A stretch of 51,063 nucleotides of DNA from Calditrichia bacterium (GCA_026983775.1 JALSTK010000110.1:1-51063); one strand, 5' to 3'; shown: positions 7,472-35,705, counted from the first letter of the stretch. Translations and numbers: made by a program. The notes: generated by a model not told the origin, from the letters alone.

Positions 7472-8512
7472 TTAAAATCCTATTTTCAGAGAAAACAGAT
7501 TATTACCGTTAAAATACTTAGAATCACGGTAAGCATAATCAATTGTTAAATCGGCACCGCCAATATTATAATTGAAACCGGCTCCAATCGTAAAGTGATA
7601 GAGTTGATCTTCCGAAGCTAACCCATTACGTAATACATAACCAGCACGTAAGGCTAGCATATCTTTGAACATATACTCAGCACCAAACTTAAAAGCATCA
7701 GTACCAAAATTATTATTGGCAAAATTACCGCTAACTAATAGATTATTGGTTTCATCAATGGCGTATTTATAACCTAGCCCAAGCTCAAAAGAAGCAGGCA
7801 ACTGATCAGATGAAGTCATCCGTTTATTGTAATTCGGAAAACTAGCGCCTGATTCAGTAGACTGGGTAATAAAGGCACTCCCGTTATACTGCATATTCGT
7901 ACCAACATTCTTTATAACCATACCGAGAGATAACCCATTGATACCCGCCACACCATGATATTGAATTCCAGCATCCACGGCAAAGGCACTGGCCGTTGCC
8001 CGATCAATACTCTCATAGATCATTTTTCCATTAAAACCAACCTGAATTGCATTAGTTAGCATAATAGAATAAGCTAATCCGATCGTTGTAAATGTCGGGG
8101 AAAACGTTCTACCACTGGCACCATCCGGATCTTCGACTGTTGTTAAAGGAATATCACCAAAATCAAATGCTTTTATGGTGACACCCAAATTACCCAGGCT
8201 TCCCATATTAAAACCAAGGCCAAGGTAATTAACATGAACATCATCAAAAATATTCATCGAAGAAAACACACCGGCTGCGTTACCTTTCATTGATGACAAA
8301 CCTGCCGGATTCCAGAAGATACCGTCAACTCCGCTTACTTCGGCGATATTAGCACCGCCCATCGCCAGATAACGCGCCCCTACAGGAACAAGCACCTGTA
8401 CACCGGCCGCCGTACCGGTACGCGCAACGTCACCGGCATAACTAGGCGTCAAACCAACAAATAGTATGAACGCCAATAGTGCGGTAATCATGCTTATTTT
8501 GTTTCTTTTCAT
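7472..8512 (-). CDS. PorV/PorQ-family outer-membrane beta-barrel protein (operon 1)
   Basis: 346 residues. Signal peptide at residues 1-26 (ITALLAFILFVGLTPSYA). Next comes the family hallmark: a small-residue segment ending in GARYLAMGGANIAE, then DGIFWNPAGLS. The rest is alternating beta strands ending in a terminal aromatic (FSLKIGF), as expected for an outer-membrane barrel. In characterised T9SS systems PorV carries cargo from the translocon to the anchoring machinery. Here the gene is the last of a three-gene operon, 48 bases after the giant cargo-like protein, so a dedicated partnership with it is likely but not shown. GGGAG precedes the ATG. A paralogue lies at 28672-29691 in the same relative place. 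Confidence 0.85.
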   Translation of the reverse strand: MKRNKISMITALLAFILFVGLTPSYAGDVARTGTAAGVQVLVPVGARYLAMGGANIAEVSGVDGIFWNPAGLSSMKGNAAGVFSSMNIFDDVHVNYLGLGFNMGSLGNLGVTIKAFDFGDIPLTTVEDPDGASGRTFSPTFTTIGLAYSIMLTNAIQVGFNGKMIYESIDRATASAFAVDAGIQYHGVAGINGLSLGMVIKNVGTNMQYNGSAFITQSTESGASFPNYNKRMTSSDQLPASFELGLGYKYAIDETNNLLVSGNFANNNFGTDAFKFGAEYMFKDMLALRAGYVLRNGLASEDQLYHFTIGAGFNYNIGGADLTIDYAYRDSKYFNGNNLFSLKIGF

Positions 8513-8560
8513 TATATACTCCCTTAAAAATCAAACCTTTATTATTATTCAAATAAACTA

Positions 8561-11500
8561 TTAATAGTATTTCAGCATTTGTGCTCTTTGAATAATAAAC
8601 ACCTTAAGCACCTTAGTTACCTTACTCCCGTCAGAGAGCGTCATCTCAATATGCGCAAAATAGATTCCGCTCGCTACCGGCAATCCTCTTTCATTCTTCA
8701 GATCCCAGTTATAAAACTGAGTATCATCATTCTTTACCAGCTTACGTACCTGGTCTCCCGCAAGAGTGAAAAGACGAATGGTAGCTTTTTTAGGTAGATG
8801 ATAAAAGGTTATAAATTTATCAAACCTATTCACACTTCTGGGGTTATTGGCATAGTATGGATTGGGATAAACCGTAACTTTTTCAACTGCGGCCTTTTCC
8901 TGGGCAACACTATACGTTTGGCCAAGTCCTTGTGTGGAAAAAGTAAATTCATCCGACCCAAGAATGATGGGGTTAGCATATTTCACATAGACCGAATCCC
9001 CTTTCTTCATTGGTGCCGTCCACCATACCAGATTCCAGGTTAAAGAATCTAAACTGGCTGAACTCGGAGCAGTTTCCTTATATGGCGTTAATAGAAAATA
9101 CGTGTACATTCTATCATTCGGATTGAATGCATAAAATGGTTTGGAACTAGACGGATCCTGCATACGGTCATAGATTAAAAAATTACACTGATAACCATCT
9201 TCCGCATCCCAGACTTCGAAAGGAACACGAACCATGAAAGGATCACTAGAACCGGGGTTAGGATTAAAGGGGTTATCCTTAAGATCATACTTACGCGCTC
9301 CAATTAGATATGCCATTGATCCACCGCTCACAACGCTGACAAGCGTATCTCCGCCAGTTGTAACCGTTGTATCATAGTCACCTGTCCAGCGCAATACATA
9401 GTCCTTAATCAGCATATTAAGGTCCGTTGTACCTTGGCCATAAGTATCAATTGCCCGGGCAGTGGCGCCCCAGCCATAAATACCATAGCTACCGACACCT
9501 TCACCGGCACCGGCAAAATCACTGATATCCTCACCATTCCATTTAACAGAACTAAAATCCGTCGGAGCTTCGTAACTTCCACCAACAATTACCTGCATTC
9601 CGTCAACAACCGGCGCATCATTGGTCACATCATTATATAATTTATCCTGACCTTCCAGAACAACCTTATTGGCCGTGATGTCCTTCAAACCCCACATATC
9701 CACGGTCTTGAAAGAATATCCGATCTCAGGAATGGTAATAGTACCGGTAGCGTCTACTATATTCCCGTCATAACCGTCATCATAAACCGTAAATCCAGCG
9801 GTTAAAGGCGGAGTAAACATATCGACATTAATGGTCATATATACCGTTCCTTCGATAGCACCAAACGTAGAACGAGCCGAGTCTCCCCATGTAATCGAAT
9901 TATCGGTTGGGTCGTAGGTACCTTCCGTATTTACTACGTTCTGGCCTTGACCCGTACCATAATCTCCATAGGCACCGGTAACAGGCTTCCAGCTATTGAC
10001 CTTAATTCCTGAAGGCAAGGTTATTTTAAGACCATCAACCCAATCGCCGCCAGGAGCAACCAGATTTAAGGTAAATATCAAATCAACCGTGCCCACATTG
10101 GTAGAAGTAACAGCAGCACCCGTTATGGTAGAAGGAGATACATCGGCTATCTTGGCCATCTTGCCCACAGGAACTACCGAATCCGGTGAGGCCGTGCGTT
10201 TCCACTTGCCATCCAAATCCAGATAGAAGAACCACGGCTCAAAATAAACGCTGTAATCATCTCCGGTTATCTGAGCCGGATCTACAACCTTAACATTCAC
10301 ACTGGCCTGTTCAGCACTACCCTTACTATGCGTTACATTCGTCAGATCTTCACCTGGAGTAGAACCTTCACTATAACCGGGCAGAGCGGCCTGGGTGGTA
10401 ACAGGAATAATCTGTATCGAAGATTCCAGACTTTTTACTACCGTAGCGGTCGGATTGTAATTATAGGCCGTTACAGCAAAAAAGTAGGTGTTACCCGGGT
10501 GAAGGGGCTCATCCTTAATATAATCTTTATCTACAATAAAATATCTTTTAACCCCTGTATCATTCCCAAATCTTATAGGAACATTAACACCTTGTCCATA
10601 CTGAGGCAGAAATCTTGTTTCGATAATCTTTTTAACATTATCTACTTTATCAAAAGTAGCCACACGAACCGCATCAGACAATCCCGATTTGGCCGAAGGT
10701 AACTGATACACATTATACCCTTCAAAGCTGTAATCTGCTAAAACCGGATTTTCCGTATTGATAACGGCATCGTTATCGAAGCTCCAATTGATAGCAATTT
10801 TATCTTCCAAGGGTGTAATTTTTACCTTAGGTGGTGACGGTGGTTTCGGAACCTGAGTAAATAGTGTATTATAGAGCATTTGTGCAATTTCATCATTTAC
10901 TTTAAGAGCAAATACGGATTGCGTTCTGGAGCCTACACCTAATTTACCGCTTTCTCCACCGATAATAGCAACAACCACTTCCTGTGTATCACCCGGCATC
11001 ATAGTAAAGGGGCCGGTACTCAGAGACATACGACGATCAGCAGGAGCAAAGTTTTTGAGTCCGGGATTACCGTCAATATCACCAATACCCGTTACAGGAT
11101 CGCCGTCCAGAGGGAACTTGGTCGGTTCGCCGGTGGCACGATGCGTAAACGGTGTGGGATTGTCCACATCGTTTGTAGTAATATATCCACGTAGTAAATT
11201 GTACCATTCCAAAGTACCGTCATAACTCTTTAATGTCGGGTCTTCCCACTCAGGATTACCGGCCGAGAAATAACCAAAAGAGGTCATGGGCATGTTTACT
11301 TTACCCGGACCTACTTTTTTCAGATTAAATACAGCATAATCTTCGGCATCATCAATGCCATTCTGGTTAATATCTTCACCTTTGACACCATCCACAATGG
11401 GGCCCTGGAAAAAGTCATAGCCAATGGCCGAAGGAGCCAACCCCAGTTCAGCAAAGTTGTCATCCGTAGGAGTACCATTATAGGCAAAACCGATTCCTAA

Positions 11501-12421
11501 TTCAGGATCGCAACCGACAACGTCATCCGTGGAATTACCCACATCCGGGTCGCACCATTGAGCTACATACATATCATCCAACTTTTTCCCGGAAATATTG
11601 ATCAAACGATATTTCTTAAATATAATTTGTCCCAATTGAGAACTGGTCTGATTGTAACCCCAGGCCGTAACCTGCAATTCCAGACCAATCGGATCCGATC
11701 CGTAAAGAGCAACAGTTCTGGCCGAATCCTGATCATCGACTCGCAAATAGATAATCTGATCGGCATTGGCAATGCCCGGGTAGTCACCTCCGGCAGTTAA
11801 TTTCCCGTTTTCATCATATTCCGCGGCGATTGGATAACCCTGATCATCCAAAACCGGATTATACTCCCCGTTACCATCAACATCATAATAAGGAGCGCCC
11901 TGATCTACAGGCCATTCTTTCCAATCTTTGGCATATTGTGCAGCCAACTGCTCCATCTGATCCGCTGTTACGCTGGCATTGGGAACACGAAAAAATTCCG
12001 ATGCATCCTGACGAAGAGGAGAAGGATCATCTAACAATTTCTTCCAGTCACTACGGATCCTGTAAATACGATCCAAAAGAGGCTCCGTCCCGATGGAATA
12101 AGTCTGACCACCAACTTGAATCTTCCCATCGACTTTACAGCCCCAGACAAAACCGTCTTCAAATATAACGCCTGCCGTACCACGTGGGTAAATACCACCG
12201 GCGTTATTGTCAGGATCTAAACCGGATTCTCCATCATAATACATCCAATACGACCAATTATTAATATTGGAAAGAGTACGAATAGGATCAAGATCCTGCG
12301 CTGTCTTGTAAATGGGATTTTGTCCCGTACCCTCCGGCCCTCTGGCGAAGACGTTGGATACTAACAGGAGCATAAATCCCACTACTATCAATGATAGCAT
12401 AAATTTTACTTTTCGCTTCAT
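8561..12421 (-). CDS. Giant secreted protein with fibronectin-like region, extra beta module and sorting domain (operon 1)
   Basis: 1286 residues. Signal peptide to about residue 27 (LSLIVVGFMLLLVSNVFARG). Its layout matches the paralogue at 970-4308: N-terminal region with LYGSDPIGLELQVTAWGYNQ and acidic repeats such as YDVDGNGEYNP, the segment FTMMPGDTQEVVVAIIGG, a fibronectin-like part (FEGYNVYQLPSA), and a terminal sorting domain (VYPNPYYANN, LFTLAGDQVRKL, GLPVASGIYFAHI). It differs by a module of about 200 residues (737-940) where the paralogue has about 43. The gene sits 46 bases after the TonB-dependent receptor and 48 before the PorV-like gene. I infer a T9SS-exported surface protein that works with the receptor, perhaps as a substrate-binding partner. 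No catalytic motif was recognised. Confidence 0.87.
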   Translation of the reverse strand: MKRKVKFMLSLIVVGFMLLLVSNVFARGPEGTGQNPIYKTAQDLDPIRTLSNINNWSYWMYYDGESGLDPDNNAGGIYPRGTAGVIFEDGFVWGCKVDGKIQVGGQTYSIGTEPLLDRIYRIRSDWKKLLDDPSPLRQDASEFFRVPNASVTADQMEQLAAQYAKDWKEWPVDQGAPYYDVDGNGEYNPVLDDQGYPIAAEYDENGKLTAGGDYPGIANADQIIYLRVDDQDSARTVALYGSDPIGLELQVTAWGYNQTSSQLGQIIFKKYRLINISGKKLDDMYVAQWCDPDVGNSTDDVVGCDPELGIGFAYNGTPTDDNFAELGLAPSAIGYDFFQGPIVDGVKGEDINQNGIDDAEDYAVFNLKKVGPGKVNMPMTSFGYFSAGNPEWEDPTLKSYDGTLEWYNLLRGYITTNDVDNPTPFTHRATGEPTKFPLDGDPVTGIGDIDGNPGLKNFAPADRRMSLSTGPFTMMPGDTQEVVVAIIGGESGKLGVGSRTQSVFALKVNDEIAQMLYNTLFTQVPKPPSPPKVKITPLEDKIAINWSFDNDAVINTENPVLADYSFEGYNVYQLPSAKSGLSDAVRVATFDKVDNVKKIIETRFLPQYGQGVNVPIRFGNDTGVKRYFIVDKDYIKDEPLHPGNTYFFAVTAYNYNPTATVVKSLESSIQIIPVTTQAALPGYSEGSTPGEDLTNVTHSKGSAEQASVNVKVVDPAQITGDDYSVYFEPWFFYLDLDGKWKRTASPDSVVPVGKMAKIADVSPSTITGAAVTSTNVGTVDLIFTLNLVAPGGDWVDGLKITLPSGIKVNSWKPVTGAYGDYGTGQGQNVVNTEGTYDPTDNSITWGDSARSTFGAIEGTVYMTINVDMFTPPLTAGFTVYDDGYDGNIVDATGTITIPEIGYSFKTVDMWGLKDITANKVVLEGQDKLYNDVTNDAPVVDGMQVIVGGSYEAPTDFSSVKWNGEDISDFAGAGEGVGSYGIYGWGATARAIDTYGQGTTDLNMLIKDYVLRWTGDYDTTVTTGGDTLVSVVSGGSMAYLIGARKYDLKDNPFNPNPGSSDPFMVRVPFEVWDAEDGYQCNFLIYDRMQDPSSSKPFYAFNPNDRMYTYFLLTPYKETAPSSASLDSLTWNLVWWTAPMKKGDSVYVKYANPIILGSDEFTFSTQGLGQTYSVAQEKAAVEKVTVYPNPYYANNPRSVNRFDKFITFYHLPKKATIRLFTLAGDQVRKLVKNDDTQFYNWDLKNERGLPVASGIYFAHIEMTLSDGSKVTKVLKVFIIQRAQMLKYY
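8567..8802 (-). repeat. Near-identical repeat, copy B (sorting-domain 3' end)
   Basis: Partner of 976-1211. The block ends abruptly at the left with the stop codon and fades at the right near 8802. It encodes the last 75 or so residues of the sorting domain, including the unusual extension RAQMLKY after the normal end of the domain. Confidence 0.9.
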
Positions 12422-12467
12422 TTGTTACCTCTCATCTTTAAATTCCTTATTCATATGGAAAATCTGT

Positions 12468-15446
12468 TTAGTAACTAAGTCTGATTCCAAAGAAAATCAT
12501 CCGCGGTGTTCCATATAATTCCCGACCTAACTGGCTGCGGTAAGCGCCACCATCAACAAGGTTGATAGCTTTATACATATCCACATAAGTCTGGCCGAGA
12601 CGCTGTACGGTTGCACCGGAAACAGACGGATCAGACAAGAAACCATCATCTTCAGCACTGCCGGTTTTTTGGAAAACATTAATTACATTTTTGGTATTTA
12701 ACAGATTGTTCACACGTACATATACCGTGGCGTTAAGGTTATTGTAAACGTTAAAAGATTTATCCAAACGCAGATCAAGCAAATAAGTCCAAGGCGTTAC
12801 GGAACGATTCAGTGGTTCCAGGGCCACGCGGGAACGGGTATCAAACATATAATCCACACCGGCCGTGTAAGGATTTGTCTGACCTCCCGGAGGTGCATAC
12901 ACAAACGTATAAGGATGACCACTGGAAAAGGTGAATAATAAATTCGCACCAAAATTTTCGAATACAGGTCCGCCATCACCTTTGTTAAACCGGTAATCCA
13001 GATTGATAGAACCGCGATGGGTTTGCGAATAATCCAGGGGCGAAACAACAATCGGTTTTACCGTATTGTTATAAACCGCGCCATGGTAAGAAGTATTACT
13101 GGAAGCGGTGCCCTCTGCATCGGTCAGGGTATAATTCACCTGGGCCTGCAAGCGATGACTTCTACGTAACGTCAGTTTAAATTCAAGGCCTTTGGTAGTA
13201 GCAAAATCGCCATTCACAAAACGTTCATAAGACTGAACTTCAGCGCCAGGAAGAACTTTTTCCAGATCCACCTGGATCTGACCCTGGACATTACGATAAA
13301 ATCCCGTTATATCAATTGCGGCAAAATCGGATAACTGACGGCGCAGTCCGATTTCGTAATTTGTTGTACGTATAGGATCCAGGCCAAAACCAATCGGATT
13401 AATATAGTAAAACCCACTCTCTGCAATTTGCCGCGATAAACGGTTCGCTCCAAAATAGATTTGATTTAACTGCGGCATCTGAACAAATTTACCATATTGT
13501 AGATAAAAAACAGTTTTTTCACTAACCGGGAAGGAAAAGCCTAATCGCGGACTAATCTGCATGAAAGGATCTTTTTTCTTCCAGTCACTTTTATAGATCA
13601 AACCACTGTTAGGATCTACATGAGGATCTTTTGGATTTTTTAAAGTATTATCATCACTATCAAAATAATCAAAACGCAAACCTGCATTAACAATTAAATC
13701 TTTATATTCGATTTTATCCTGTACATAAAAAGCACCAAAAAGTGGATTTTTGGGCCCATCTACATAGGTTCCGTTGGGATAATTCTTGTCGCTGTTAATT
13801 TCATTGCCATAGGCATCAAAACCATACGTATCAACGCCACCCAATTTAATCCACGTCTTTACAGGTACATTTTTTATACTACCGTATGTATCAGATGATC
13901 CATAGGTACCGGGAGCGGCAGTTAAATACATAACACTTGGATCAATATCAAAGTAACGTACCGTATAAGCTCGCGCTTCAGCGCCGACTTTTATTTCGTG
14001 ATAACGACCCAACTGACTGGTAAGCTTAAAAGCGCCGGAATAGTAATTTTGTTGTAAATTACGATAAAAATATGATGGATTCCCGTTACGTGTAAAAGGG
14101 ATACCTGCAAAAAGATAATTAAATTTCGGTTTCCAGGCATCGCGATAAGTCACGCCATGAGCCGCAACTTTTGTACTGTCGAACCAGGAGTGCCAGTCAT
14201 TGCCGAAATAACTATCACCTCGCTCCAAATGATAACCAAAAGCACCTAAAGTAACATCGTAGTAAGTAGTCGGTGAAAGAACATGGGTCAGTTTAGCACT
14301 TAATAGGTATGTATTCAGATCATCATAAATTTGACGATTATTAAGCACATGCAGCCAAGGTGCGCCATCAAGATAGGTTCTTCTCGTGTTAAAAGTACCA
14401 CCAATTCGCAGACGGATCGGATTAAAATTAAACAACAAGGTTCCATTCAGCGCATACCGGTTGCTTTTATTGTGTGGCGTAAATCCATCCGGATATTTGA
14501 GATTAACCGTGTCATGAACTGCATTGGCTGGATTCTGATCCACCATATTATCAAATTCCCAACCTTTACTGAAACGAACCTGATCATCACCCTGGTAATT
14601 GTTCTCAGCTGCCAGGAAGAATCGAACCTTTTTGGTTAATATAGGGCCGCTTAGAGTCACGGCACCAATATGATGCTGATACGAATATGTGCCTAAAAAT
14701 TTTTCACCCTCACTGGCGAACTTGTCTGTCTGAACATCTACTGAAAAATGGTAATCCGGTGTACCGGTTTTAAGCTCTGCCCGGATAATGCCGGAATTGG
14801 CGCCACCAAATTCGGCCGTATAACCACCGGTCAAAACCTGAATTTCTTCCACGGCATCCTGGATAACATAAATAGCATTGGTATTATTTAACGGATTTGA
14901 TGTAGACGCCCCGTCAAGATAATAACCCACTTCTTCCTGACGACCGCCACGAATATGGACCTGGCCATCCTGCACGACCACACTGGGCTGTAAGGCTAAA
15001 ATATTATTCAGGCCTCTAACAGGAATTGCCTCAAGCTGTTTAGAAGTGACCAGAGAATAACTTTGGGTCACATTCTTTTCTACCAGAGGACGCTTGGCCA
15101 CAACTACAACCGCCTGACCCAATTCGAGGGTAGTCGGTTCCAGCTCAAAATTTTTGTCGGTAGTAATACCGGCGGAAACACGAACACCTTCCACAACTAC
15201 CTTTTTATATCCTACATAGCTGGCTTCAATATTATATACACCAACAGGAACATTTAAGATAACATAGTAACCGTCAACATCGGTAGTTGCGCCTAGGTAG
15301 GTATTCTGGAGAACAACATTCACGCCAGGCAAAGGTTCGCCTGTCTTCTTGTCTTTAACTACACCGGTAATTTTACCCGAAGACTGAGCAAAAAGGAAAA
15401 TCGGCATAGATAAGGCAAATAATATTATAAGTATTTTTTTGAACAT
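12468..15446 (-). CDS. TonB-dependent outer-membrane receptor with carboxypeptidase-regulatory-like domain (operon 1)
   Basis: 992 residues. Signal peptide 1-21 (ILIILFALSMPIFLFAQ). Residues 24 to about 110 are a CarboxypepD_reg-like domain (ITGVVKDKKTGEPLPGVNVV, then TTDVDGYYVILNVPVG). The plug follows at about 115-230 (VHIRGGRQEEVGYYLDG, GGYTAEFGGANSG). The remainder is a beta barrel with alternating aromatic strands ending in PRMIFFGIRLSY. It should take up a ligand across the outer membrane with energy from TonB. It is the first gene of a three-gene operon with a promoter at 15582-15610. GGAGG precedes the ATG. This domain order resembles SusC-type receptors and the ferric receptor group; the ligand cannot be told from the sequence. 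Confidence 0.9.
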   Translation of the reverse strand: MFKKILIILFALSMPIFLFAQSSGKITGVVKDKKTGEPLPGVNVVLQNTYLGATTDVDGYYVILNVPVGVYNIEASYVGYKKVVVEGVRVSAGITTDKNFELEPTTLELGQAVVVVAKRPLVEKNVTQSYSLVTSKQLEAIPVRGLNNILALQPSVVVQDGQVHIRGGRQEEVGYYLDGASTSNPLNNTNAIYVIQDAVEEIQVLTGGYTAEFGGANSGIIRAELKTGTPDYHFSVDVQTDKFASEGEKFLGTYSYQHHIGAVTLSGPILTKKVRFFLAAENNYQGDDQVRFSKGWEFDNMVDQNPANAVHDTVNLKYPDGFTPHNKSNRYALNGTLLFNFNPIRLRIGGTFNTRRTYLDGAPWLHVLNNRQIYDDLNTYLLSAKLTHVLSPTTYYDVTLGAFGYHLERGDSYFGNDWHSWFDSTKVAAHGVTYRDAWKPKFNYLFAGIPFTRNGNPSYFYRNLQQNYYSGAFKLTSQLGRYHEIKVGAEARAYTVRYFDIDPSVMYLTAAPGTYGSSDTYGSIKNVPVKTWIKLGGVDTYGFDAYGNEINSDKNYPNGTYVDGPKNPLFGAFYVQDKIEYKDLIVNAGLRFDYFDSDDNTLKNPKDPHVDPNSGLIYKSDWKKKDPFMQISPRLGFSFPVSEKTVFYLQYGKFVQMPQLNQIYFGANRLSRQIAESGFYYINPIGFGLDPIRTTNYEIGLRRQLSDFAAIDITGFYRNVQGQIQVDLEKVLPGAEVQSYERFVNGDFATTKGLEFKLTLRRSHRLQAQVNYTLTDAEGTASSNTSYHGAVYNNTVKPIVVSPLDYSQTHRGSINLDYRFNKGDGGPVFENFGANLLFTFSSGHPYTFVYAPPGGQTNPYTAGVDYMFDTRSRVALEPLNRSVTPWTYLLDLRLDKSFNVYNNLNATVYVRVNNLLNTKNVINVFQKTGSAEDDGFLSDPSVSGATVQRLGQTYVDMYKAINLVDGGAYRSQLGRELYGTPRMIFFGIRLSY

Positions 15447-15459
15447 CCCTTAACCTCCA

Positions 15460-15516
15460 CTAATTAAGACAATTCAACAGAAAAAAACGGACAATTAAGA
15501 TAAATAGATTTTCCAT
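15460..15516 (-). CDS. Possible 18-residue leader peptide before the receptor gene
   Basis: A strong AGGAGG site at 15530-15535 (minus strand) precedes ATG-ACA-TAA at 15524-15516, and its stop overlaps a second ATG (TAATG at 15518-15514). The second ATG opens a frame encoding MENLFILIVRFFLLNCLN, which ends 13 bases before the receptor start. Two in-line tiny frames behind the best ribosome binding site in the leader suggest translational control, but the signal is short and may be accidental. Confidence 0.25.
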   Translation of the reverse strand: MENLFILIVRFFLLNCLN

Positions 15517-15558
15517 TATGTCATATGCCACCTCCTGTTTTATATTACCTTACATTAA

Positions 15559-15576: not shown

Positions 15577-15581
15577 AGCAA

Positions 15582-15830: not shown

Positions 15831-15855
15831 AAGTCTTTCAAAAAAACAAAAGGGT

Positions 15856-19215: not shown

Positions 19216-19239
19216 AATACCTTCCTCCAATTTAAGTAT

Positions 19240-22518: not shown

Positions 22519-22547
22519 TAAATTCAGACTTTTAAATGATCATGATT

Positions 22548-25928: not shown

Positions 25929-26061
25929 AAAAACTCCGGGATAAAAATTAACTAAAATTCAAACACCGTAATGAATCAATCAATCAAAAAAGAAATATGG
26001 AAACACACGCTCCGTAAGAAGGCAGACCGGTTGTTCGTTAGGATGTTCAACCATTAAAAAC

Positions 26062-26088
26062 GGTTCAGGGAGCCCGGCTCCCCGAACC
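26062..26088 (-). terminator. Intrinsic terminator of operon 2
   Basis: On the minus strand GGTTC (26088-26084) and GCTCCC-type arms form an 11-pair hairpin with one mismatch and a three-base loop (GGGAGC pairs with GCTCCC; GGTTC pairs with GAACC), followed by GTTTTTAA. It lies 16 bases after the stop of the MAM-like gene and separates operon 2 from the protease operon. Confidence 0.85.
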
Positions 26089-26104
26089 TGGTATTCTCTA
26101 TTTC

Positions 26105-28621
26105 CTATTTAATAAACAGCATCCGGTTGGTAAGAGTAATTCCCTTACTTTTTAGCTGGTATAGATATATACCGGAACTGACCGTTTTCCCCGAACTATT
26201 TTTACCCAACCATCGGGCATAATGTGTACCCGGTACGGCCTTACCGTCAAACAATGTAGCGACTTTTTGTCCCAAAATATTATAGACCGTTATTGTCATA
26301 TGCTGACCTGCGGCTCTCACGGGCACGTTAAAAGGAATCATTGTTTGCGGATTAAAGGGATTGGGATAGTTATTCCCCAAACCGAAACGATCGGCAATAA
26401 ACGAACGGTGTTCTTTAATCCCCACCGCCGTTTTAACCTGAGAGGTGTCTAACAAAACATGAACCATGGCATCGAGATCCGTAACGTTCACCAGACCGGA
26501 CGATTCCTCTACATAGGTATTCCCGTCAATCGGCTCGGATGTATCTGCGCCCAGTTTATAACCGGATCCATACCGTTTAACGCTGATATAGAAACTTTTC
26601 ATGGACGAATCAATGGTCATCTTCTTCTCAAATATCATACGGTTAAACCCGGGTTTTACATCCGCTTTTTGCAACGTTTTAAATGTAAAAAGGCTGTCCG
26701 GGGCTCCGCTGGTATCGTTTGTGGTCCAGACTTTGATCTGGATAGGAGCAATTCTTGTAACTCCGGTGGAATCCAGGAAGAAATTAACCCCTTCCAGATT
26801 TACAGGATAATATTTGGGAGTAAATTTTACATAGATAAGTTTATTCGTGGGTGCCACAATCGTCGTATCGGGAGTGGAGTCATCATAGCCGAACTCCACA
26901 ACCGTAGGAGGATAAATTTCGGCCCCTGCTACCAGGATATATCCCTCATCATTTCTGGGAAAATCGGATGTCCCTTCATATTTAATTCCCGCCTTAAGCG
27001 TATAGTCATATTCCTGAAAAGGTACAACCGCCGTGTCGGTAAAAACACTGTCCATAACTTCCCCCATCAAATGGATATAAGCATCCCCGGGGGTCGTACG
27101 CCAAACCTGATAGGTCTTTCCTTCCTCAAAATCCCAGCTCACGTGGATCGTTGTATCTTCCGGAACCGGAACAGCTTTAATTCCCGTGGGTGCCGGGATC
27201 GTCACAATCGGACTGTAGATGACAAAATCATCCACCAGCAAGCCGTAACCGATGGGCTGATCGTCGTCCGAATGGAAACGAATGCGGATATATACATCCT
27301 GCCCGGCGAAACGTGAAAGATCAAAAGGCGACATATTTTCCGGATAACCGTAAAATGTGGAAACATTAATCCAACGATCAAAGCCCTCGGGATAAACATA
27401 ATACCCACCATCATCCGAGATGCTAACGGGTTCCCATTCCGTACTATCTATGGGACGCGCCTCCACGTAAAAGAAATCTCTCGAATTTAAATCTTCATCC
27501 GGATCGGCAAAAAAGGGTAAATGATCAAAATCGAGGTAAATGGGAGTTGTATCCGGTAAAGCGATCGGTCCGGTACCGTACGCATCTTCCATCCAGGGAT
27601 TGTAGGTCGCGGTAGAATCGAATACGTCTCCGCCGTTTTGCAGAACAGCGGCATGGGTGCCCGAAGGGGTAAATTCCGATGCATAGACCGGCAAAGGATT
27701 CTCGATCGTAGCGACATGCCACAGGTCTCCGCCGAGCGGAGGGATATACACATTATCCTTACCCGTCATCCCGTCTTTTTGCCCGTCATTAAAAAAATAG
27801 AGCGAATCGTCCGAAGCCACGGTGATGCTATCGACTTCCCAACCGAACATATCCGGGCCTCCATCGGCCGTGGAATAAGCCATATCCGAAGCAAAGGCAA
27901 AACGGATCATAAACGGCTGCAAAGGTTCTACATAGTCTTTCAGGCTGATGCTCTCTTTCCGCCATTCCAACTGATCGCCGCCCCAACCGGGTATACCGAC
28001 GCCTTCGAACATACCTTGAGTCGGCTCCCCGAAAGCCCAGTCGCTGGAAATATTATAGGTGTCAAATTCCAATACATGCCAGGTCAGGCCGCTATCCGTA
28101 CTCACCCGGACATTAATGGCATCCCATCCATCGTAAGGTGCCGGTGCTCCTGCCGGATTCTCCACACTGAAGCGGTGATAGAAAGAAAAAGTCAGGTTGG
28201 TATCTGTCGTATCGGAAACCAGAATGGGGGGCGTATCCAGTACCTGATACCAGTGATTGTCGTAGCCTCCGTTGGTCCCGAGGCTGGTATCGGCCATACG
28301 CCAGGAAGAATCTCCTAGCGCTTCCCATGTATCCAGTAGCCAGTGACTCGGACCGCGTTGCGGACGGGGATCGGTTAAATCGTCACTGGTCCAGCGATGC
28401 CATTCACTGCCCGGTTCAAAATCTTCCATGAATAGAAGACCACCCGGAAATCCATTCGAAGGTTTTTTGAGAGTATGAGGCAATCTCGTATTCTTAAAGA
28501 CCGATATCTTTGTCTGTGGTGTTTGGGGTAGGATCGGATAGGCCTGGTTCTGTATACGTTCAGCTGCAGAAAGCAGGCTCACCAGGCTCATAATCGTTAA
28601 AAACAGTAAAAATTTACGCAT
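26105..28621 (-). CDS. Secreted MAM/immune-inhibitor-A-like protein with fibronectin region and sorting domain
   Basis: 838 residues. Signal peptide 1-19 (FLLFLTIMSLVSLLSAAE). Two lectin-like beta-sandwich segments resemble the MAM/immune-inhibitor-A-like or choice-of-anchor domains: one from about 60 to 270 (LLFMEDFEPGSEWHRW, FSFYHRFSVENPAG, INVRVSTDSGLTWHVL) and one ending near 480 (VYIRIRFHSDDDQPIGYG, LLVDDFVIYSP). A fibronectin-type segment follows (GIKAVPVPEDTTIHVSWDF). The end is a canonical sorting domain (LGNNYPNPFNPQTMIPFNVP, YNILGQKVATLF, SSGIYLYQL). No protease zinc motif was seen, so this is a binding module rather than an enzyme as far as I can tell. It starts behind AAGGAGG, 50 bases after the PorV-like gene, and closes operon 2. 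Confidence 0.82.
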   Translation of the reverse strand: MRKFLLFLTIMSLVSLLSAAERIQNQAYPILPQTPQTKISVFKNTRLPHTLKKPSNGFPGGLLFMEDFEPGSEWHRWTSDDLTDPRPQRGPSHWLLDTWEALGDSSWRMADTSLGTNGGYDNHWYQVLDTPPILVSDTTDTNLTFSFYHRFSVENPAGAPAPYDGWDAINVRVSTDSGLTWHVLEFDTYNISSDWAFGEPTQGMFEGVGIPGWGGDQLEWRKESISLKDYVEPLQPFMIRFAFASDMAYSTADGGPDMFGWEVDSITVASDDSLYFFNDGQKDGMTGKDNVYIPPLGGDLWHVATIENPLPVYASEFTPSGTHAAVLQNGGDVFDSTATYNPWMEDAYGTGPIALPDTTPIYLDFDHLPFFADPDEDLNSRDFFYVEARPIDSTEWEPVSISDDGGYYVYPEGFDRWINVSTFYGYPENMSPFDLSRFAGQDVYIRIRFHSDDDQPIGYGLLVDDFVIYSPIVTIPAPTGIKAVPVPEDTTIHVSWDFEEGKTYQVWRTTPGDAYIHLMGEVMDSVFTDTAVVPFQEYDYTLKAGIKYEGTSDFPRNDEGYILVAGAEIYPPTVVEFGYDDSTPDTTIVAPTNKLIYVKFTPKYYPVNLEGVNFFLDSTGVTRIAPIQIKVWTTNDTSGAPDSLFTFKTLQKADVKPGFNRMIFEKKMTIDSSMKSFYISVKRYGSGYKLGADTSEPIDGNTYVEESSGLVNVTDLDAMVHVLLDTSQVKTAVGIKEHRSFIADRFGLGNNYPNPFNPQTMIPFNVPVRAAGQHMTITVYNILGQKVATLFDGKAVPGTHYARWLGKNSSGKTVSSGIYLYQLKSKGITLTNRMLFIK

Positions 28622-28671
28622 TCAAATTCCTCCTTAAAACGTTTGTTTTACATACCTTTTAATGATTCAAC

Positions 28672-29691
28672 TTAAAATAAAAAGTCAAAGCCATAATTAT
28701 GAACATATCCCAGCAAACCGTAGTCGTTAAAGGCATAATTCATCCTGGCATGAATGCCCAGTTTACTGAAATTTAAACCTATTCCCGCCGTAAACCTGGC
28801 TTCATCATAATTGTCTTTATAACCGACGCGAAAGGCGACAAATTGATTCCATTCGTATTCCAACCCCATATTATAACGCAGGTAGTGATCCGTCGGGTCA
28901 TTCGCTTCCAAAGCAACGGTCAGCCGGTTTGTATCATCGTGAAGGATTTCGGAATTCTTACCAAGCACATCGAGAGCGATTCCCATACGGAAAACCAATG
29001 GAATCGGCCACTCTTCGGTTTTAAGACGGGCCCCCGCCTGATAGGAGGTTGAAGTGGAGCTGTTGGTATAATCCATATCCAGTTCCGGACCGTCCAATTT
29101 CATTTTTCCGCCGAAATTCGTTAGGGCCATACCCAACTTTATTCCGTAGATACCCGTATCAAACTGGGAGCCCACATCAAAGGCAATAGTAGATGCTTTT
29201 TCCAGAGAAAGTCTTTCCGTTATATATTTGACGGTTACGCCCAGATCAAAACGGGTGGTCAGGCTTCTGGAAAGGCTAATTCCGATGGAGGAAGAAGCCG
29301 CGTCGAAAGTTTGTCCCGTACCTTCCGGTTCATCAATCGTGGTCATTTCCATACTCCCCGAATTGAGATAGAGGACGGAAAGGCCAACCGTATTATCCGC
29401 ATCAATGGGAATGGTAATCCCTAAAAAATTATAAGTAATACCCGCGAACAACTGGGTTCTGGCCACCCCTAAGGAAGGACGGCCGATCTTCTGAATACCC
29501 GCGGGATTCCAATACATAGCGGAAACGTCGGAAGCCAGAGCCGCATAGGCATCTCCGAGTGCCGTGCCCCTGGCTCCCGCGCCCAGTTTTAAAAACTGGC
29601 CCATCGAGGTAGCCACCTTGGATAGTTCCGTTTGAGCCAGGAGAGGCAGCGTGAATATGAGTATCCATCCTATGATATTTTTTAACTTCAT
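28672..29691 (-). CDS. PorV/PorQ-family outer-membrane beta-barrel protein (operon 2)
   Basis: 339 residues. Signal peptide 1-20 (IIGWILIFTLPLLAQ). The family hallmark is clear: FLKLGAGARGTALGDAYAAL followed by VSAMYWNPAGIQ. The rest is a predicted barrel ending in NYGFDFLF with a terminal aromatic. It is closer to the textbook PorV pattern than the copy in operon 1 (GARGTALGDAY compared with GARYLAMGGAN). The gene starts behind TAGGAG, 23 bases after the giant protein, and precedes the MAM-like cargo. The likely role is a T9SS shuttle or a structural partner of the neighbouring receptor; which one is not visible. Confidence 0.87.
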   Translation of the reverse strand: MKLKNIIGWILIFTLPLLAQTELSKVATSMGQFLKLGAGARGTALGDAYAALASDVSAMYWNPAGIQKIGRPSLGVARTQLFAGITYNFLGITIPIDADNTVGLSVLYLNSGSMEMTTIDEPEGTGQTFDAASSSIGISLSRSLTTRFDLGVTVKYITERLSLEKASTIAFDVGSQFDTGIYGIKLGMALTNFGGKMKLDGPELDMDYTNSSTSTSYQAGARLKTEEWPIPLVFRMGIALDVLGKNSEILHDDTNRLTVALEANDPTDHYLRYNMGLEYEWNQFVAFRVGYKDNYDEARFTAGIGLNFSKLGIHARMNYAFNDYGLLGYVHNYGFDFLF

Positions 29692-29714
29692 TGAATCACT
29701 CCTAAACTTTCAAA

Positions 29715-32700
29715 TCACTTAATCACCACAAATTTACCGGTGTATTTTTGGCCGTTGTCCGCTTTTACCACATACACATAGAGTCCGGGGGCCGCTTCCT
29801 GTCGGTTGACGGTCAGCAAATCCCAATCTTCACTGCCATCGAAAGGACTATCATGATGAAGGGTAATCACTTTTTCACCGGATACCGTAAAAATATAGAT
29901 ATCACATTTATTCGGTAAATTGGTAAACTGCAGTTTGCGAACAAAATAGTCATTCTCCCAGGCGGCATGCACGATATAAGGGTTCGGGACCACTTTAACC
30001 TTTTTTATTGAGTTTTTAGATACCTTTTTAACCCGGAATACTTCTTTTGTGTTGACCAGAAAGCCGTCACCGCGTTCAAAAGGTTTGCGTACCGGCATCA
30101 TCAGTGTATCGCCCGCAGCCCAGTCCCGATCGGCCGAAATCAAATTTCCGTCAGCATCATAGGTATTGGGCAAAACCCAATCCAGAGTAAACAACAGAGA
30201 GAGTCTGTATTGGTCATTGTCCGGAGCTTCCGGCAGATGATTTTCATACACATAAAATTTAGTTCCTGGTTTGAATTCCGTGGCAGCGTAACCCACCAAA
30301 CGTCCCTTGCGGTGCGTGACCGTATTCCAGACCTGAAAAGGTACCATGAAGCGGGATTGATTGCCGTTATTGGTAATATAAACGCTGTCGGCATTCTCCC
30401 CGGTAAAAAGCAACATATAATCCGATCTGGTCGGCGGGGAATTTAGAGAAGCGGTGGACAATTTATAGGTACACCGGGAATTAGGAGTCCAGTAAGCGTC
30501 TTCCTTCATTAAAATAATATCGGTACTCATCTGGATTCCCCAGCGCAAACCGTCGAAAATCGGAGGGGCTTCCGGCTGTTCCAGATCTTTGGACCATTCC
30601 TTACTGTTGGTAACCAGTGTATCGCCCTTATCTTGATCATAAATCGTATAGCGTTGCGAACCCGGAATTATTTTGGTATCGGCCGGCGGATCGTAATAGT
30701 CACAATCGAAGGTAATCTCATAAACGTCACCGGTCACTGCCTTAGGATCAATCACTTCAACCGTAAAAATACCGTTGCCTATCGTTCCTTCCTTTTTCAC
30801 CACCTGCAAATCCGCCATTTCGGCATTACTGGCCGGACGGTGGGGAATTACTTTTACAATATGGGGTAAATTGGTACTATTCGCCAGAAAGTTTTCCAGC
30901 GAAGGGACTGTAAAGGTCAGCGATTTATGAGCCCCGGAACTATCCGGGTCAAGGATCGCATCATTGGGGATAAATCCACGGTCGTATGCGCAAACCGCAT
31001 AAATATACTCCCGCCCGTTTTCAACATTTGTATCCTCGAATTTATATTTTAATCCCGTATCATCACCGAGATAGCGGTGAGGAGCCACGCGGTCGTAGCC
31101 GACGATTCCGTCCTTTTTATCAAATTGGGCAATCGGTTCCCAATAGGTGGTATTGGTTTCTCCGTCATAAATTTTTGTACCCCAGGTGAGCCCGTTATCG
31201 GAGCTCCTATAAATTCTGTATCCTTCAAAATCTTTAATACCGGTAATGATATCCTTATCCTGGACGGAGAGGGCATCCCAATAAAGGGTTATTTTCCGAT
31301 CGTCTTCTTTCGCAATTACGTGAGGTGCTCTGGGCGGTCTGGTGCCCTGATAGTTATTGTCGTACATGATCTGAGCGATACGGGCATTGGCGATCAGGTC
31401 GTCTTCATTTTCGCCCATCAGTATACAAAAAGAGAAAGGTACCGAATCACCGCTGGCAATATTGAAAGGGCCGGAACCCATAATGAACACACAATCCAGT
31501 CCGTCCGGATAATCATAAATCAGTCCTTCGACCGAATCAAAACGCGGATTGAGCTTTCCGTAACCGACCTCACTCCGATACGGATGAAAATAGTGCAATG
31601 AATCATAGGGAGAAAGATTACTCGTATCTCCGGCAATTATTTTGTATTGAATTTCTTCCTTATTGGGAGCGACCGGGGTTTGACCGTCCCCTGACCAGGG
31701 TCCCTGGTTGGGGCTTTCATCCCGGGCCCCGGGACGGAAGTACCAGTCAAACCAATGCCAGCTGGTCAGCCCTAATTTATCTCCCTGATGTACATCAATC
31801 ACTCCGTCCGCATCCAGATCGATGTCTTCCGCGGCAGTCGGCGTGTCCAATAATTTCACGGCGGAATAGGCCAGGTTTTTATCTCCCACATAGGGATTAG
31901 AATGGTCGCCATCCAGATCGTAAATGTAGCCGAAATCCCAATCCGTATTATAAGACATCATATCGTCATCATTCGTCCGGCCGGCATAACTTCCATTGGC
32001 CAGACGATTATAGGCATCCACATCAAAATAGAACCCGGCAAACACATTCTCATAATCATACTGAGATTCATTGATCAGGGTCATTTTAAAAAAGATGATG
32101 TCTTCGGAGATACTGGCCCCGTAAGAATAACCCGACACTTTGGCTTTGATACCCGTAGGATATCCCTGATTGGGGTCTACATCCCGGGTGGCCAACCGAT
32201 CGTCGAATTCAAAATAAATATCCTGATCGGATACAAAAACGCCGGGTAGTTCCTTTTTTCCTGAAGAATCAGCAGGATCCAGCGCCCAGGGCCCGGGCCA
32301 GGTTCGCTGCTCATCCGTCCCGGGCCAGGTTTCCGGAATGTCACTGGTGGCAATGAGGGGATATTGATCCTCTTCATTGGTATATAGGCCTAATTTACCG
32401 TAATACTCGCCGGCAGTGGCCAAAGGGTTATGCAAGCGGATGCGGGCGTCTTCCACGGCCTCCCAGTCCGTACGATTCAGATTGGGAGTACGATCAAACC
32501 ATGATTCCGATACCGTGGCTCCCCAATAGGTCGTATCCGTGCCCATGGTTTCGAAATCCTGATTTTTTATATTATAATGTTTCTTTTGACCAACTGCCCA
32601 GGGGTAGGGATTTCCATTGGCATCCTTACCCGGCACACCCAGTACGAGCGATAAATTCGAAATATACTGAAAGTCGCCCCATAATCCCTGAGGAGAGGCC

Positions 32701-32888
32701 GTACCGGAAAAGATTCCGTAATTTTCTACGGCTATTTTCAGTTTTCCTTTATCTAAATAGGCTCTGGCCCGGTTAAGTAACGGATCGGTAATGGCCGTCT
32801 TTCTCAAAGCCTGATTTTTTTTCACCGGCTCCATGGCAAGAACCAGCATCCCACTCAGGAATATGAATAAAATCGTTTTTTTGATCAT
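29715..32888 (-). CDS. Giant secreted protein with fibronectin-like region and sorting domain (operon 2)
   Basis: 1057 residues from the ATG at 32888, which follows AAGGTG at good spacing; an in-frame GTG nine bases upstream overlaps that site. Signal peptide about 1-20 (TILFIFLSGMLVLAME). Position-by-position features match the proteins at 970 and 8561 although identity is low: SDQDIYFEFDD, YGASISEDIIFFKMTLINES, an acidic loop (DLDADGVIDVHQGD), IMGSGPFNIASGD, fibronectin-like FEGYRIYRSSDNG, and VEVIDPKAVTGDVYEITFD. The end is a sorting domain of the normal length (VVPNPYIVHAAW, FTVSGEKVITL, APGLYVYVVK, ending KFVVIK). It lies 47 bases after a TonB-dependent receptor and 23 before a PorV-like gene, the same position as the operon 1 paralogue. 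Function unknown; a surface partner of the receptor is my inference. Confidence 0.85.
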   Translation of the reverse strand: MIKKTILFIFLSGMLVLAMEPVKKNQALRKTAITDPLLNRARAYLDKGKLKIAVENYGIFSGTASPQGLWGDFQYISNLSLVLGVPGKDANGNPYPWAVGQKKHYNIKNQDFETMGTDTTYWGATVSESWFDRTPNLNRTDWEAVEDARIRLHNPLATAGEYYGKLGLYTNEEDQYPLIATSDIPETWPGTDEQRTWPGPWALDPADSSGKKELPGVFVSDQDIYFEFDDRLATRDVDPNQGYPTGIKAKVSGYSYGASISEDIIFFKMTLINESQYDYENVFAGFYFDVDAYNRLANGSYAGRTNDDDMMSYNTDWDFGYIYDLDGDHSNPYVGDKNLAYSAVKLLDTPTAAEDIDLDADGVIDVHQGDKLGLTSWHWFDWYFRPGARDESPNQGPWSGDGQTPVAPNKEEIQYKIIAGDTSNLSPYDSLHYFHPYRSEVGYGKLNPRFDSVEGLIYDYPDGLDCVFIMGSGPFNIASGDSVPFSFCILMGENEDDLIANARIAQIMYDNNYQGTRPPRAPHVIAKEDDRKITLYWDALSVQDKDIITGIKDFEGYRIYRSSDNGLTWGTKIYDGETNTTYWEPIAQFDKKDGIVGYDRVAPHRYLGDDTGLKYKFEDTNVENGREYIYAVCAYDRGFIPNDAILDPDSSGAHKSLTFTVPSLENFLANSTNLPHIVKVIPHRPASNAEMADLQVVKKEGTIGNGIFTVEVIDPKAVTGDVYEITFDCDYYDPPADTKIIPGSQRYTIYDQDKGDTLVTNSKEWSKDLEQPEAPPIFDGLRWGIQMSTDIILMKEDAYWTPNSRCTYKLSTASLNSPPTRSDYMLLFTGENADSVYITNNGNQSRFMVPFQVWNTVTHRKGRLVGYAATEFKPGTKFYVYENHLPEAPDNDQYRLSLLFTLDWVLPNTYDADGNLISADRDWAAGDTLMMPVRKPFERGDGFLVNTKEVFRVKKVSKNSIKKVKVVPNPYIVHAAWENDYFVRKLQFTNLPNKCDIYIFTVSGEKVITLHHDSPFDGSEDWDLLTVNRQEAAPGLYVYVVKADNGQKYTGKFVVIK

Positions 32889-32935
32889 GTAAAACACCTT
32901 ACTTACTATTCATCTCTTTAACTTTTATTAAGAAA

Positions 32936-35668
32936 CTAAAAATTGATCTCCAGTGAAAAATCAACCTGCCGGCGGCGACCGTAATAATAGGGCCGGTCGA
33001 AGTAGGTTTTAGAAAGAATACCTTTTTTGATCAGTTCGTTTAAGCGCGTCCCCGGGTCATCCGCTTTTCCGGTTTCCGGATAGATATCAAGAGCGTTTTT
33101 CCAGTCAAATAAATTCTGAACCATTACTCCGAATATGAGTCGGGCTCCCATTACTTTTACAGATTTTTGATATCTGAAATTGGCCGTAATATTCCAGGGA
33201 CCCCGCTCGGAATTCGTTTCACCGGGCACATTCCCGATGATCGGCGTATAGGGGAATCCGCTCATAGCGAGGAACATTAAATCGAAACGTGAATTTTCCA
33301 GGGGATGAATCGTAGAAAATTGCAGACCGGCTCCCGGACCAAAGCGATAGGAATATGAAGCGCTGATGTCATGAGTCCGGTCATAAGACATGAGCAGCTC
33401 CCGCTTGGGCATGGTACGCGGTGTATCGGTTTCCCGGTAACCTTCCCAGGGATCACGCCGGTTGGCGGTAGCTCTGGAGTTGGTATACTGGATGATCAGT
33501 GACGAAATCCGGCCCTGGTAACGTAAAACCAGGTCCACTCCCCGGGCGGTTGCATAATCGGTATTTAAGAATATGGTGTAAGAGTACGGAAACTGAGGAA
33601 CCCTTTCCGTAGAAGTCAACTCCGAATATTCCTTAGACCAACCGATGATCTGAGCAATTACATGTTCGCTCAAGCCCACATTTAAACCGAATTCATAGGC
33701 GGTCATCCGTTCCATACTTAAACCGGAATTCCCAACCAGAGGAGAATAGGTTTTAATATCTTTGGTAGGATTCATATATTTATTGCGGTAGGTCGGCGTC
33801 TGGGTAAAACGTCCGTAACCGAAAGTAAAGGTTGCATTATCGGTAATAATCTGGGAAAAACCGATACGCGGGCTCCAGGAATACTCCCATTTACTATTAA
33901 CCAGTTTGCGTTCCGCCTCTGTTGCCCAGGGATCATTCCAGTACTGGGCATGAGCATTTAGCATATCGAGACGCATACCGAGATGAATGGTCATATAATC
34001 GTATTCGATCAAATCCTGGACATAAAAAGCCATCTCTTCCGGATGCCGTTTATATTTCTCCACATAGGGGTTCTGGAGCCAGGGTAGCTGAATTTCATTA
34101 ATCATAATTGTGTGTCGTCTGTAAGAGGCTCCGGCTTTCACTTCATGATGTTTGGTTACCTGGGATAAAAAACTTAACAATCCTTCATACGTATCCGAAT
34201 AACTGTGATGATAGTACCGGTCATTACCTTTTACATAGTACTCATACCAGAAAGGGTTATGTTCATAGTCATCATCATATCCCGGCTCTTTATACTCATT
34301 CGGAGAGAGATATCTGCCATTGACCGAACCGTTATCCGTTACACCGATAAACATCTTCTGATAAAAGCGAGACATCTTTAACGTATAAAAACTCTTCTTT
34401 GACAATTGGTGATTGAAGATCAAGGCCTGACGGTCGGAAGTCTGTGTATCGATATTGCGACCGGCTTCATAATACTGATACCAGAGATTGGCACCGTTCG
34501 CCGTACGAAAAGTGGTTTTTAAATTCCAGTTGGAAAACGAAGCCTTCATGGCATTGTTGATATGCCAGGTCAGTTTTCCATACAAATCCCAGGTATAGCG
34601 GAAGCCCATCTGGTGCCAATCAGGGATCGTATCCAGTTTATTGTAATGGGCATTATGGGGATCATCGGGATGGGCGCTGTCATAAAGGGAATCGTCGAAT
34701 TGGTAAACCCGGTAGGCCGAACCGAGGCGATGACCGGTAACAATAAACCTTAGTTTGCTGTTTGTAAAGGGTACGGGACCGCCGAATCCTCCTGAGATTT
34801 CACGATAATCTCTTAAGAAATCCTGCCTCTGCGGCGACAGATCGATTCTGGCTCCGGGATTGACCGTCTCACTGAACAGGGCCGGTAAATTAGAAGGATT
34901 AGAAGAAGCCAGCTTGATCTGTCCGCTTAAGTGATCGGGACCGTCCTTGGTGATGATATTAATCATACTGGACATGGCACCGCCGTATTCGGCATCGAAC
35001 ACACCGGTTTTGATATCCACCTGTTCCACGGCGAAATCATTCAATTCCGTCCAGGAATATTTTGAGCCGTAAAAAGGATTGACGATATACATACCGTCGA
35101 TGGTATAACCGATTTCCCCGGAACGGCCGCCGCGTACATGGATCTCTTCTATACCGCGATCCTCGAATCCGGCAATACCCTGCAAACTGCTTTCGATCTG
35201 TATGACACCGGCCTGGGCGGCAACCATTTGGGAAAAATCCTGAACCGGCATGGCGCGCAGGTCTTCGGCCTGAATAGTAATTTTCTTAGTGGTTTCATCT
35301 TTTTGGACTTTAAATCCATGGGCAACTACTTCGATGGTTTCACCCTGCTCGATGGCTTCCCTTAATTGAAAATTAATTTTCGTCGTCTGATCCAGGATAA
35401 CTTGTACGCCTTTTTTGCGAACGGTTTCATAACCGATATAGTTAGCCTCTATCGTATAGGTACCCACCGGAATATTAATGATAAAAAAGTCGCCGTCCGC
35501 ATCTGTGGAAGCTCCTAAATTGGTACCGACGACGATTACATTGGCTCCGGCCAGGGGCTCGCGTGTTTTGGCATCCAGCACCCTGCCGGCCAGTTTACCC
35601 GTAGTACCGGCCCTCAGGCTAACCGTTAAGAAGAAAAATATGAGAATGATATAACTAATCCGTTTCAT
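32936..35668 (-). CDS. TonB-dependent outer-membrane receptor with carboxypeptidase-regulatory-like domain (operon 2)
   Basis: 910 residues from the ATG at 35668 (MKRISYIILIFFFLTVSLRA), which gives a clean signal peptide; an upstream in-frame ATG would place a hairpin and non-signal residues in front and was rejected. Domains: CarboxypepD_reg-like at about 23-110 (LAGRVLDAKTREPLAGANVI, DADGDFFIINIPVG), plug at about 120-250 (IHVRGGRSGEIGYTIDG, KTGVFDAEYGGAMSSMI), then a barrel ending in RRRQVDFSLEINF. The plug and barrel motifs parallel the receptor of operon 1. It opens operon 2 (receptor, giant protein, PorV-like, MAM-like). The ribosome binding site is a weak GGTGG. The imported ligand is unknown. 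Confidence 0.9.
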   Translation of the reverse strand: MKRISYIILIFFFLTVSLRAGTTGKLAGRVLDAKTREPLAGANVIVVGTNLGASTDADGDFFIINIPVGTYTIEANYIGYETVRKKGVQVILDQTTKINFQLREAIEQGETIEVVAHGFKVQKDETTKKITIQAEDLRAMPVQDFSQMVAAQAGVIQIESSLQGIAGFEDRGIEEIHVRGGRSGEIGYTIDGMYIVNPFYGSKYSWTELNDFAVEQVDIKTGVFDAEYGGAMSSMINIITKDGPDHLSGQIKLASSNPSNLPALFSETVNPGARIDLSPQRQDFLRDYREISGGFGGPVPFTNSKLRFIVTGHRLGSAYRVYQFDDSLYDSAHPDDPHNAHYNKLDTIPDWHQMGFRYTWDLYGKLTWHINNAMKASFSNWNLKTTFRTANGANLWYQYYEAGRNIDTQTSDRQALIFNHQLSKKSFYTLKMSRFYQKMFIGVTDNGSVNGRYLSPNEYKEPGYDDDYEHNPFWYEYYVKGNDRYYHHSYSDTYEGLLSFLSQVTKHHEVKAGASYRRHTIMINEIQLPWLQNPYVEKYKRHPEEMAFYVQDLIEYDYMTIHLGMRLDMLNAHAQYWNDPWATEAERKLVNSKWEYSWSPRIGFSQIITDNATFTFGYGRFTQTPTYRNKYMNPTKDIKTYSPLVGNSGLSMERMTAYEFGLNVGLSEHVIAQIIGWSKEYSELTSTERVPQFPYSYTIFLNTDYATARGVDLVLRYQGRISSLIIQYTNSRATANRRDPWEGYRETDTPRTMPKRELLMSYDRTHDISASYSYRFGPGAGLQFSTIHPLENSRFDLMFLAMSGFPYTPIIGNVPGETNSERGPWNITANFRYQKSVKVMGARLIFGVMVQNLFDWKNALDIYPETGKADDPGTRLNELIKKGILSKTYFDRPYYYGRRRQVDFSLEINF

Positions 35669-35705
35669 AAGCCACCATATAATATCGTTTTTACAAATAA
35701 ATAAG

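Follow-up and report, generated by a model that had tools for sequence, protein, structure and literature searches.

Two operons in the window analysed here, a 51-kb contig of a Calditrichia bacterium (GCA_026983775.1, JALSTK010000110.1:1-51063; 51,063 nucleotides from a whole genome of 4.03 Mb), encode the same three-gene unit: a TonB-dependent receptor, a giant protein with a C-terminal sorting domain (CTD) of the type IX secretion system (T9SS), and a barrel protein of the PorV family. This unit occurs in many copies in Calditrichota bacteria and some relatives. We consider it probable that it is an uptake module similar to SusCD, in which the surface partner would be a T9SS cargo with a private carrier or anchor of PorV type; the complex, its anchoring, the lid action and the ligands are parts of this proposal that we infer. 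The two units consist of the following genes:

12468..15446, minus strand: operon 1 TonB-dependent receptor, 992 aa, with CarboxypepD_reg N-domain, TonB-box-like stretch, plug and barrel
8561..12421, minus strand: operon 1 giant, putative T9SS-exported surface partner, 1286 aa, with unit-type C-terminal sorting domain
7472..8512, minus strand: operon 1 PorV-family barrel, putative private carrier or anchor, 346 aa, NF033709 170.8 bits
32936..35668, minus strand: operon 2 TonB-dependent receptor (Pfam), 1021 bits with the unit-receptor profile
29715..32897, minus strand: operon 2 giant, 1060 aa, start GTG 32897 or ATG 32888
28672..29691, minus strand: operon 2 PorV-family barrel, 339 aa, NF033709 186.1 bits

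The sequence-only reading of this DNA had described two units with the order receptor, giant, PorV and nearly equal short gaps, and the gene calls bear this out, with 46 bases between receptor and giant in operon 1 and, according to which start codon is used, 38-47 bases in operon 2 (where the open frame of the receptor extends to 35731 and the signal peptide begins at 35668). It had also held that the receptors are homologous, that the giants are related and that each unit has its own PorV-family protein, and all of this stands. Specifically, the receptors share 26% identity over ~1000 aa (E=6e-70) and both contain the plug, barrel and CarboxypepD_reg domains; the giants share 23% identity (E=8e-17, with a second segment at E=1e-11); and the PorV-family proteins, both above the cut-off of their family, share 28% identity (E=3e-32).

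The pattern is not confined to these two operons. The window's genome contains 12 receptors that score above 950 bits with the unit-receptor profile, all others scoring at most 154 bits, and all 12 are accompanied by a giant and a PorV-family gene; in one unit (contig C121) the giant comes first, followed by two other genes and then the receptor. This genome has 20 PorV-family genes above cut-off. Because the arrangement recurs 12 times in it, the pattern is not due to chance. Giants are present in 39 of 40 sampled relatives, mostly 4 to 21 apiece. A locus search with the three-member alignment A1 favoured operon-1 types. Since the relatives' loci were selected by giant score, counts over whole genomes are less prone to bias. 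In G005, a complete genome of 4,978,541 bases, a same-strand PorV gene lies within 8 kb of 17/17 unit-type receptors versus 0/10 others, and both partners accompany 17 of its 24 giant loci (counted from the table). Four other genomes were reached by way of Ignavibacteria, Bacteroidetes-labelled and Neomarinimicrobiota loci; in them, such a PorV gene accompanies 38/40 unit-type receptors versus 1/42 others (Fisher p=1e-19). A check proposed with the sequence-only reading was whether giant homologues elsewhere are flanked by a TonB receptor and a PorV gene; mostly they are, including in Ignavibacteria and Neomarinimicrobiota genomes.

Among 64 units from 22 genomes, 55 keep the order receptor-giant-PorV, the giant adjoins the PorV gene in most, and the median gaps are 28 and 24 bp, which are typical of co-transcription. 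The three genes also co-diversify: pairwise distances in these units correlate at 0.92 between receptor barrel and giant body, 0.90 between receptor and PorV, and 0.87 between giant and PorV, each value exceeding all 1000 within-genome shuffles and also the 0.75 obtained when two parts of one receptor are compared. Chance co-location is ruled out by the receptor-class contrasts together with these shuffles. The idea of a receptor, an exported partner and an exporter helper that travel as a set is thus supported by the 12/12 units here, the 17/24 giant loci of G005 and the co-diversification of the three genes.

To place each component, we compared it with curated families. Both receptors exceed the Pfam cut-offs for plug, TonB-type barrel and CarboxypepD_reg (operon 1: PF13715/PF07715/PF00593, 954 bits with the unit-receptor profile), which makes them TonB-dependent receptors, and most receptors of the 64 units have a TonB-box-like stretch, GEEIVVVA, ahead of the plug. 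Both fall below the SusC/RagA model TIGR04056, with 62 and 68 bits against a cut-off of 368. The unit PorVs lie above the cut-off of the PorV/PorQ family NF033709 (90) and below both equivalog models, with 75.7 and 75.6 bits for PorV (NF033710, cut-off 250) and 86.9 and 86.5 bits for PorQ (NF033711, cut-off 220); other genes of the genome encode the true PorV and PorQ. For PorP/SprF (TIGR03519, cut-off 90.6), the operon-1 PorV reaches 19.9 bits and the operon-2 PorV gives no match. The closest solved relative of the unit PorVs is PorV (E=2e-31), TodX following at E=2e-4, and there are weak Toluene_X and TodX matches. In a tree, the unit PorVs and other PorVs form two separate groups, the dividing branch being without support.

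The giants have the signal peptide, Ig-like C-terminal sorting domain and lysine near the C-terminus of type A T9SS cargo, with a borderline score: against the type A tail model TIGR04183 (cut-off 23), giant 1 passes with 23.4 bits and giant 2 narrowly misses with 22.6, and neither matches the type B tail model TIGR04131. The lysine near the tail end (Lys1055) is invariant in 14 giants; in solved complexes, a lysine near the tail end touches PorV (PMC10994853). None of 64 giants has a lipobox. AlphaFold2 models of giants (predicted local distance difference test, pLDDT, 69 and 80) contain a beta-rich N-domain, an FN3-like domain and an Ig-like tail, with an additional beta domain in long giants; in giant 2 the order is beta-rich N-domain, FN3-like domain, extra beta domain, sorting domain. 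Foldseek matches the giants to FN3 tandems and to a PorZ/PorU-type tail. It also returned GH94-type supersandwich and polysaccharide lyase folds, which are weak (template modelling score <=0.23) and on which we do not rely.

The route of export can be examined in the sorting domains themselves. We trained profiles of unit and of ordinary CTDs on other genomes only and applied them to the T9SS tails of this genome. All giants, including a solitary one described below, favour the unit profile by 57 to 140 bits (giant 1, 98.8 versus 28.2), except for a giant left incomplete by the end of its contig, with a margin of 15 bits, and for the secreted enzymes encoded nearby it is mostly the ordinary profile that gives far higher scores. 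At the level of sequence, the unit CTDs are a distinct sorting-domain subclass, cleanly apart from ordinary CTDs. The genome encodes a T9SS core with one SprA, a canonical PorV (261.8 bits, cut-off 250) and PorQ; a PorU homologue scores 328 bits, below the curated cut-off of 420, and adjoins a PorV2-like gene. The PorV-family gene of each unit and the distinct CTD subclass suggest that the giants of the units may not use the canonical PorV.

A third giant, overlooked in the sequence-only reading, bears on the same question:

970..4308, minus strand: third, solitary giant, 1112 aa

It has no adjoining receptor or PorV gene and is 56% identical to giant 1 in the best segment. The two bodies share 51% of residues, with 50% identical codons at the shared residues, whereas the last 82 codons share 95% of residues and 92% identical codons; at the DNA level, these 82 codons (970-1215 versus 8561-8806) are 94% identical and the bodies 58%. 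Judged from this alignment, there has been recent gene conversion limited to the sorting domain, ending at the stop codon. A like signature is seen in the Ignavibacteria locus L133 (0.47 and 0.45 in the body, 0.98 and 0.90 in the tail) and perhaps in L145, where the frames are partial. A near-identical tail on diverging bodies is as expected if paralogous giants use one shared carrier, and in Flavobacterium, orphan type B cargos share one shuttle (PMC12618676). Conversion alone is no proof of selection.

The genes beside the units indicate what the module might serve. At other loci, the same-strand neighbours include alpha-amylase, glycoside hydrolases (GH3, GH9, GH16, GH53, GH94), glucoamylase and CBM9 proteins, as well as sugar ATP-binding cassette (ABC) binding proteins and permeases, sodium symporters and PPIC isomerases, a context resembling polysaccharide utilization loci (PULs). 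In C62 and L081, an alpha-amylase and a CBM20/X25 protein with a T9SS tail stand beside the unit, a pair that resembles SusG plus SusE/F. For 62 control proteins, taken from the genome's other PorV loci, the families in the matches listed include no hydrolase or CBM. The context of glycan degradation and import thus belongs to units at loci outside the window; operons 1 and 2 adjoin subtilases, and peptides are therefore the likelier ligand there. The suggestion of uptake, made earlier from the sequence, has gained support from the adjacent amylases, cellulases, glucan-binding proteins and sugar importers, and the joint mechanism would still be our construction.

Some features of these loci were noted in passing. 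L063 and L081 are starch loci lacking SusD, made up of alpha-amylase, isomerase, receptor, giant, PorV and the CBM20/X25 T9SS-tail protein; in the C62 starch locus, a symporter and a sugar ABC importer come next. A PPIC-type peptidyl-prolyl isomerase of ~550 aa lies directly beside the unit in 7/71 scanned neighbours, plus L063 and L081, and is possibly a dedicated periplasmic chaperone for the receptor or the giant.

Operon 2 belongs to a conserved operon of seven genes (22548-40116) comprising two T9SS-tail proteins, receptor, giant, PorV, an 838-aa T9SS-tail protein and a subtilase. Its further members, and the subtilase upstream of operon 1, are:

37990..40116, minus strand: 708-aa secreted protein with T9SS tail (PF18962, weak BNR), first member of conserved operon 2
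35774..37915, minus strand: 713-aa secreted protein with T9SS tail (PF18962), upstream member of conserved operon 2
26105..28621, minus strand: 838-aa secreted protein downstream in operon 2, with an ordinary T9SS tail of type A, conserved in the orthologous operon
22548..25928, minus strand: subtilase S8 with FG-GAP propeller and T9SS tail (PF00082, E=1e-43), whose homologue closes conserved operon 2
15856..19230, minus strand: subtilase S8 upstream of operon 1 (PF00082, E=5e-40)

The full set is kept in the same order in L086 and L147, and in L116 minus the 708-aa gene. Identities in L086 and L147 are 65-66% for PorV, 51-55% for the 838-aa protein, 57-62% for the 713-aa protein and 56-59% for the 708-aa protein; with L116 included, they are 63-73% for the receptor and 43-49% for the subtilase homologues. 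The upstream subtilase of operon 1 has a 58% homologue in L121, and its homologue adjoins operon-1 units in L121 and L119. In the window itself, three successive subtilases occupy 15856-25928, all with FG-GAP or propeller repeats and ordinary T9SS tails. An Rfam search and a tRNA scan of the window gave no matches.

These observations fit a sequence of steps that we propose for the uptake module. Export of the giant would begin at the inner membrane, crossed with the help of its signal peptide, and continue across the outer membrane through SprA, the only T9SS translocon; the giant's subclass sorting domain would then be taken up by the PorV-family barrel encoded beside it. This barrel might hand the giant over or, more likely, anchor it at the surface, replacing the lipid role of SusD; private shuttles of SprF type (PMC12618676) and anchoring by PorP (PMC9143113) are precedents. 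At the surface, the giant would pair with its cognate TonB-dependent receptor as a ligand-capturing partner or lid, and TonB would power import of the ligand. Ligands would vary by unit, with starch and other glycans for several and, where subtilases adjoin the units of the window, probably peptides.

Several results weigh against this proposal. Solitary or tandem giants exist (window 970-4308; G005; L133, L134), and five giant loci of G005 have no nearby receptor, which means that not every giant requires a receptor of its own. Thus, the joint travel of the three genes stands and the strictness of their pairing does not: strict modularity, with one receptor per giant, is ruled out by these solitary and tandem giants, some of which are of operon-1 type. 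We also observed operon-1 type tandem arrays with neither receptor nor PorV of their own in L133, L134 (Ignavibacteria-type) and G005:C1:982579-997388. In addition, the CTD-PorV correlation (0.70) does not exceed that of CTD and receptor (0.72), so co-inheritance alone cannot single out a contact between CTD and PorV, and we do not treat this correlation as decisive. Finally, one to three SusD-family genes occur in 20/40 sampled relatives, and Foldseek finds no SusD-like match for the giants in models of limited confidence (pLDDT 69 and 80). Pfam and NCBIfam likewise give the giants no SusD match. In favour of the proposal, on the other hand, SusD_RagB (PF07980) has no match in the window's own genome (G000) or in G005.

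Other readings place one of the three proteins differently. The locus might serve nutrition with the PorV-family protein acting as a FadL/TodX-like diffusion channel for the ligand, the giant using canonical PorV and being fixed to lipopolysaccharide by PorU. PorV proteins are indeed FadL relatives with weak Toluene_X/TodX matches, and a canonical PorV and a PorU homologue are present, but the far closer match to solved PorV than to TodX, the separate subclass of unit CTDs and a CTD-only gene conversion that fits carrier matching all argue against this, and we regard it as unlikely. We find it unlikely, too, that the giants act at the surface as adhesins or sensors or form part of an S-layer, with a receptor that is co-expressed and in no complex with them: their FN3 and Ig-like content resembles adhesins and solitary tandem giants occur, yet the very strong co-diversification, a receptor subfamily almost confined to these units and the catabolic gene context speak against it.

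Export through the receptor is very unlikely in our judgement. Here, the TonB-dependent barrel would move the giant outward as in Myxococcus, where PopC secretion requires the TonB-dependent Oar and the Ton system (PMC6434023), with the PorV-family protein assisting. The receptor-giant correlation of 0.92 speaks for this; however, the giants bear their own T9SS tails in a genome that has the T9SS core, solitary giants lack a receptor, and the sugar hydrolases, binding proteins and importers beside units fit import.

If the uptake module is what we propose, it would explain many PUL-like loci in bacteria of the Fibrobacteres-Chlorobi-Bacteroidetes (FCB) group that have few or no SusD proteins, would assign a role to the 'hypothetical T9SS-tail proteins' and PorV paralogues, which form very large families, and would mean that private carriers are also possible for type A-like cargo. 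We see an even chance that it represents a third architecture of TonB-dependent nutrient capture, common in Calditrichota and found also in Ignavibacteria and Neomarinimicrobiota, in which the lid is delivered by T9SS and held by its own PorV-type barrel, joining import to secretion and giving each module a private export address in the tail of its cargo. With about a dozen matched cargo-carrier pairs per genome, a code between sorting domain and carrier would be directly testable. We found no description of the three-gene unit in the literature, and the Caldithrix genome paper does not mention PorV or sorting domains.

We know of no PorV gene in the BtuB-BtuG unit. That system shows that a TonB-dependent transporter can have a surface partner other than SusD (PMC10404256), BtuG being, unlike the giants, a surface lipoprotein. 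Oar-PopC similarly ties a TonB-dependent barrel to an extracellular protein, but the receptor is needed for secretion there (PMC6434023), whereas the partner in our unit has its own T9SS tail. The unit barrels belong with canonical PorV and PorQ in NF033709 and match solved PorV significantly; they differ in lying under both equivalog cut-offs and in that each cargo has a copy of its own, in place of a single general carrier. In SprB-SprF, a type B cargo gene is directly followed by the gene of its own PorP/SprF carrier barrel, several pairs occur per genome, and orphan cargos may use a common carrier (PMC12618676, PMC9143113); in contrast, the tail of our unit is type A-like, its carrier is of the PorV/PorQ family and a TonB receptor is included. 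With SusCD/RagAB of the Bacteroidota PULs, the unit shares an adjacent TonB-dependent barrel with CarboxypepD_reg and a cognate surface protein, many paralogues per genome, and adjoining glycan hydrolases, binding proteins and importers. Its partner, however, is a T9SS cargo of 600-1300 aa that is neither a lipoprotein nor SusD-like, and a PorV-family barrel is its fixed third gene. The unit resembles SusCD in import and SprB-SprF in the export of its partner, but is a member of neither.

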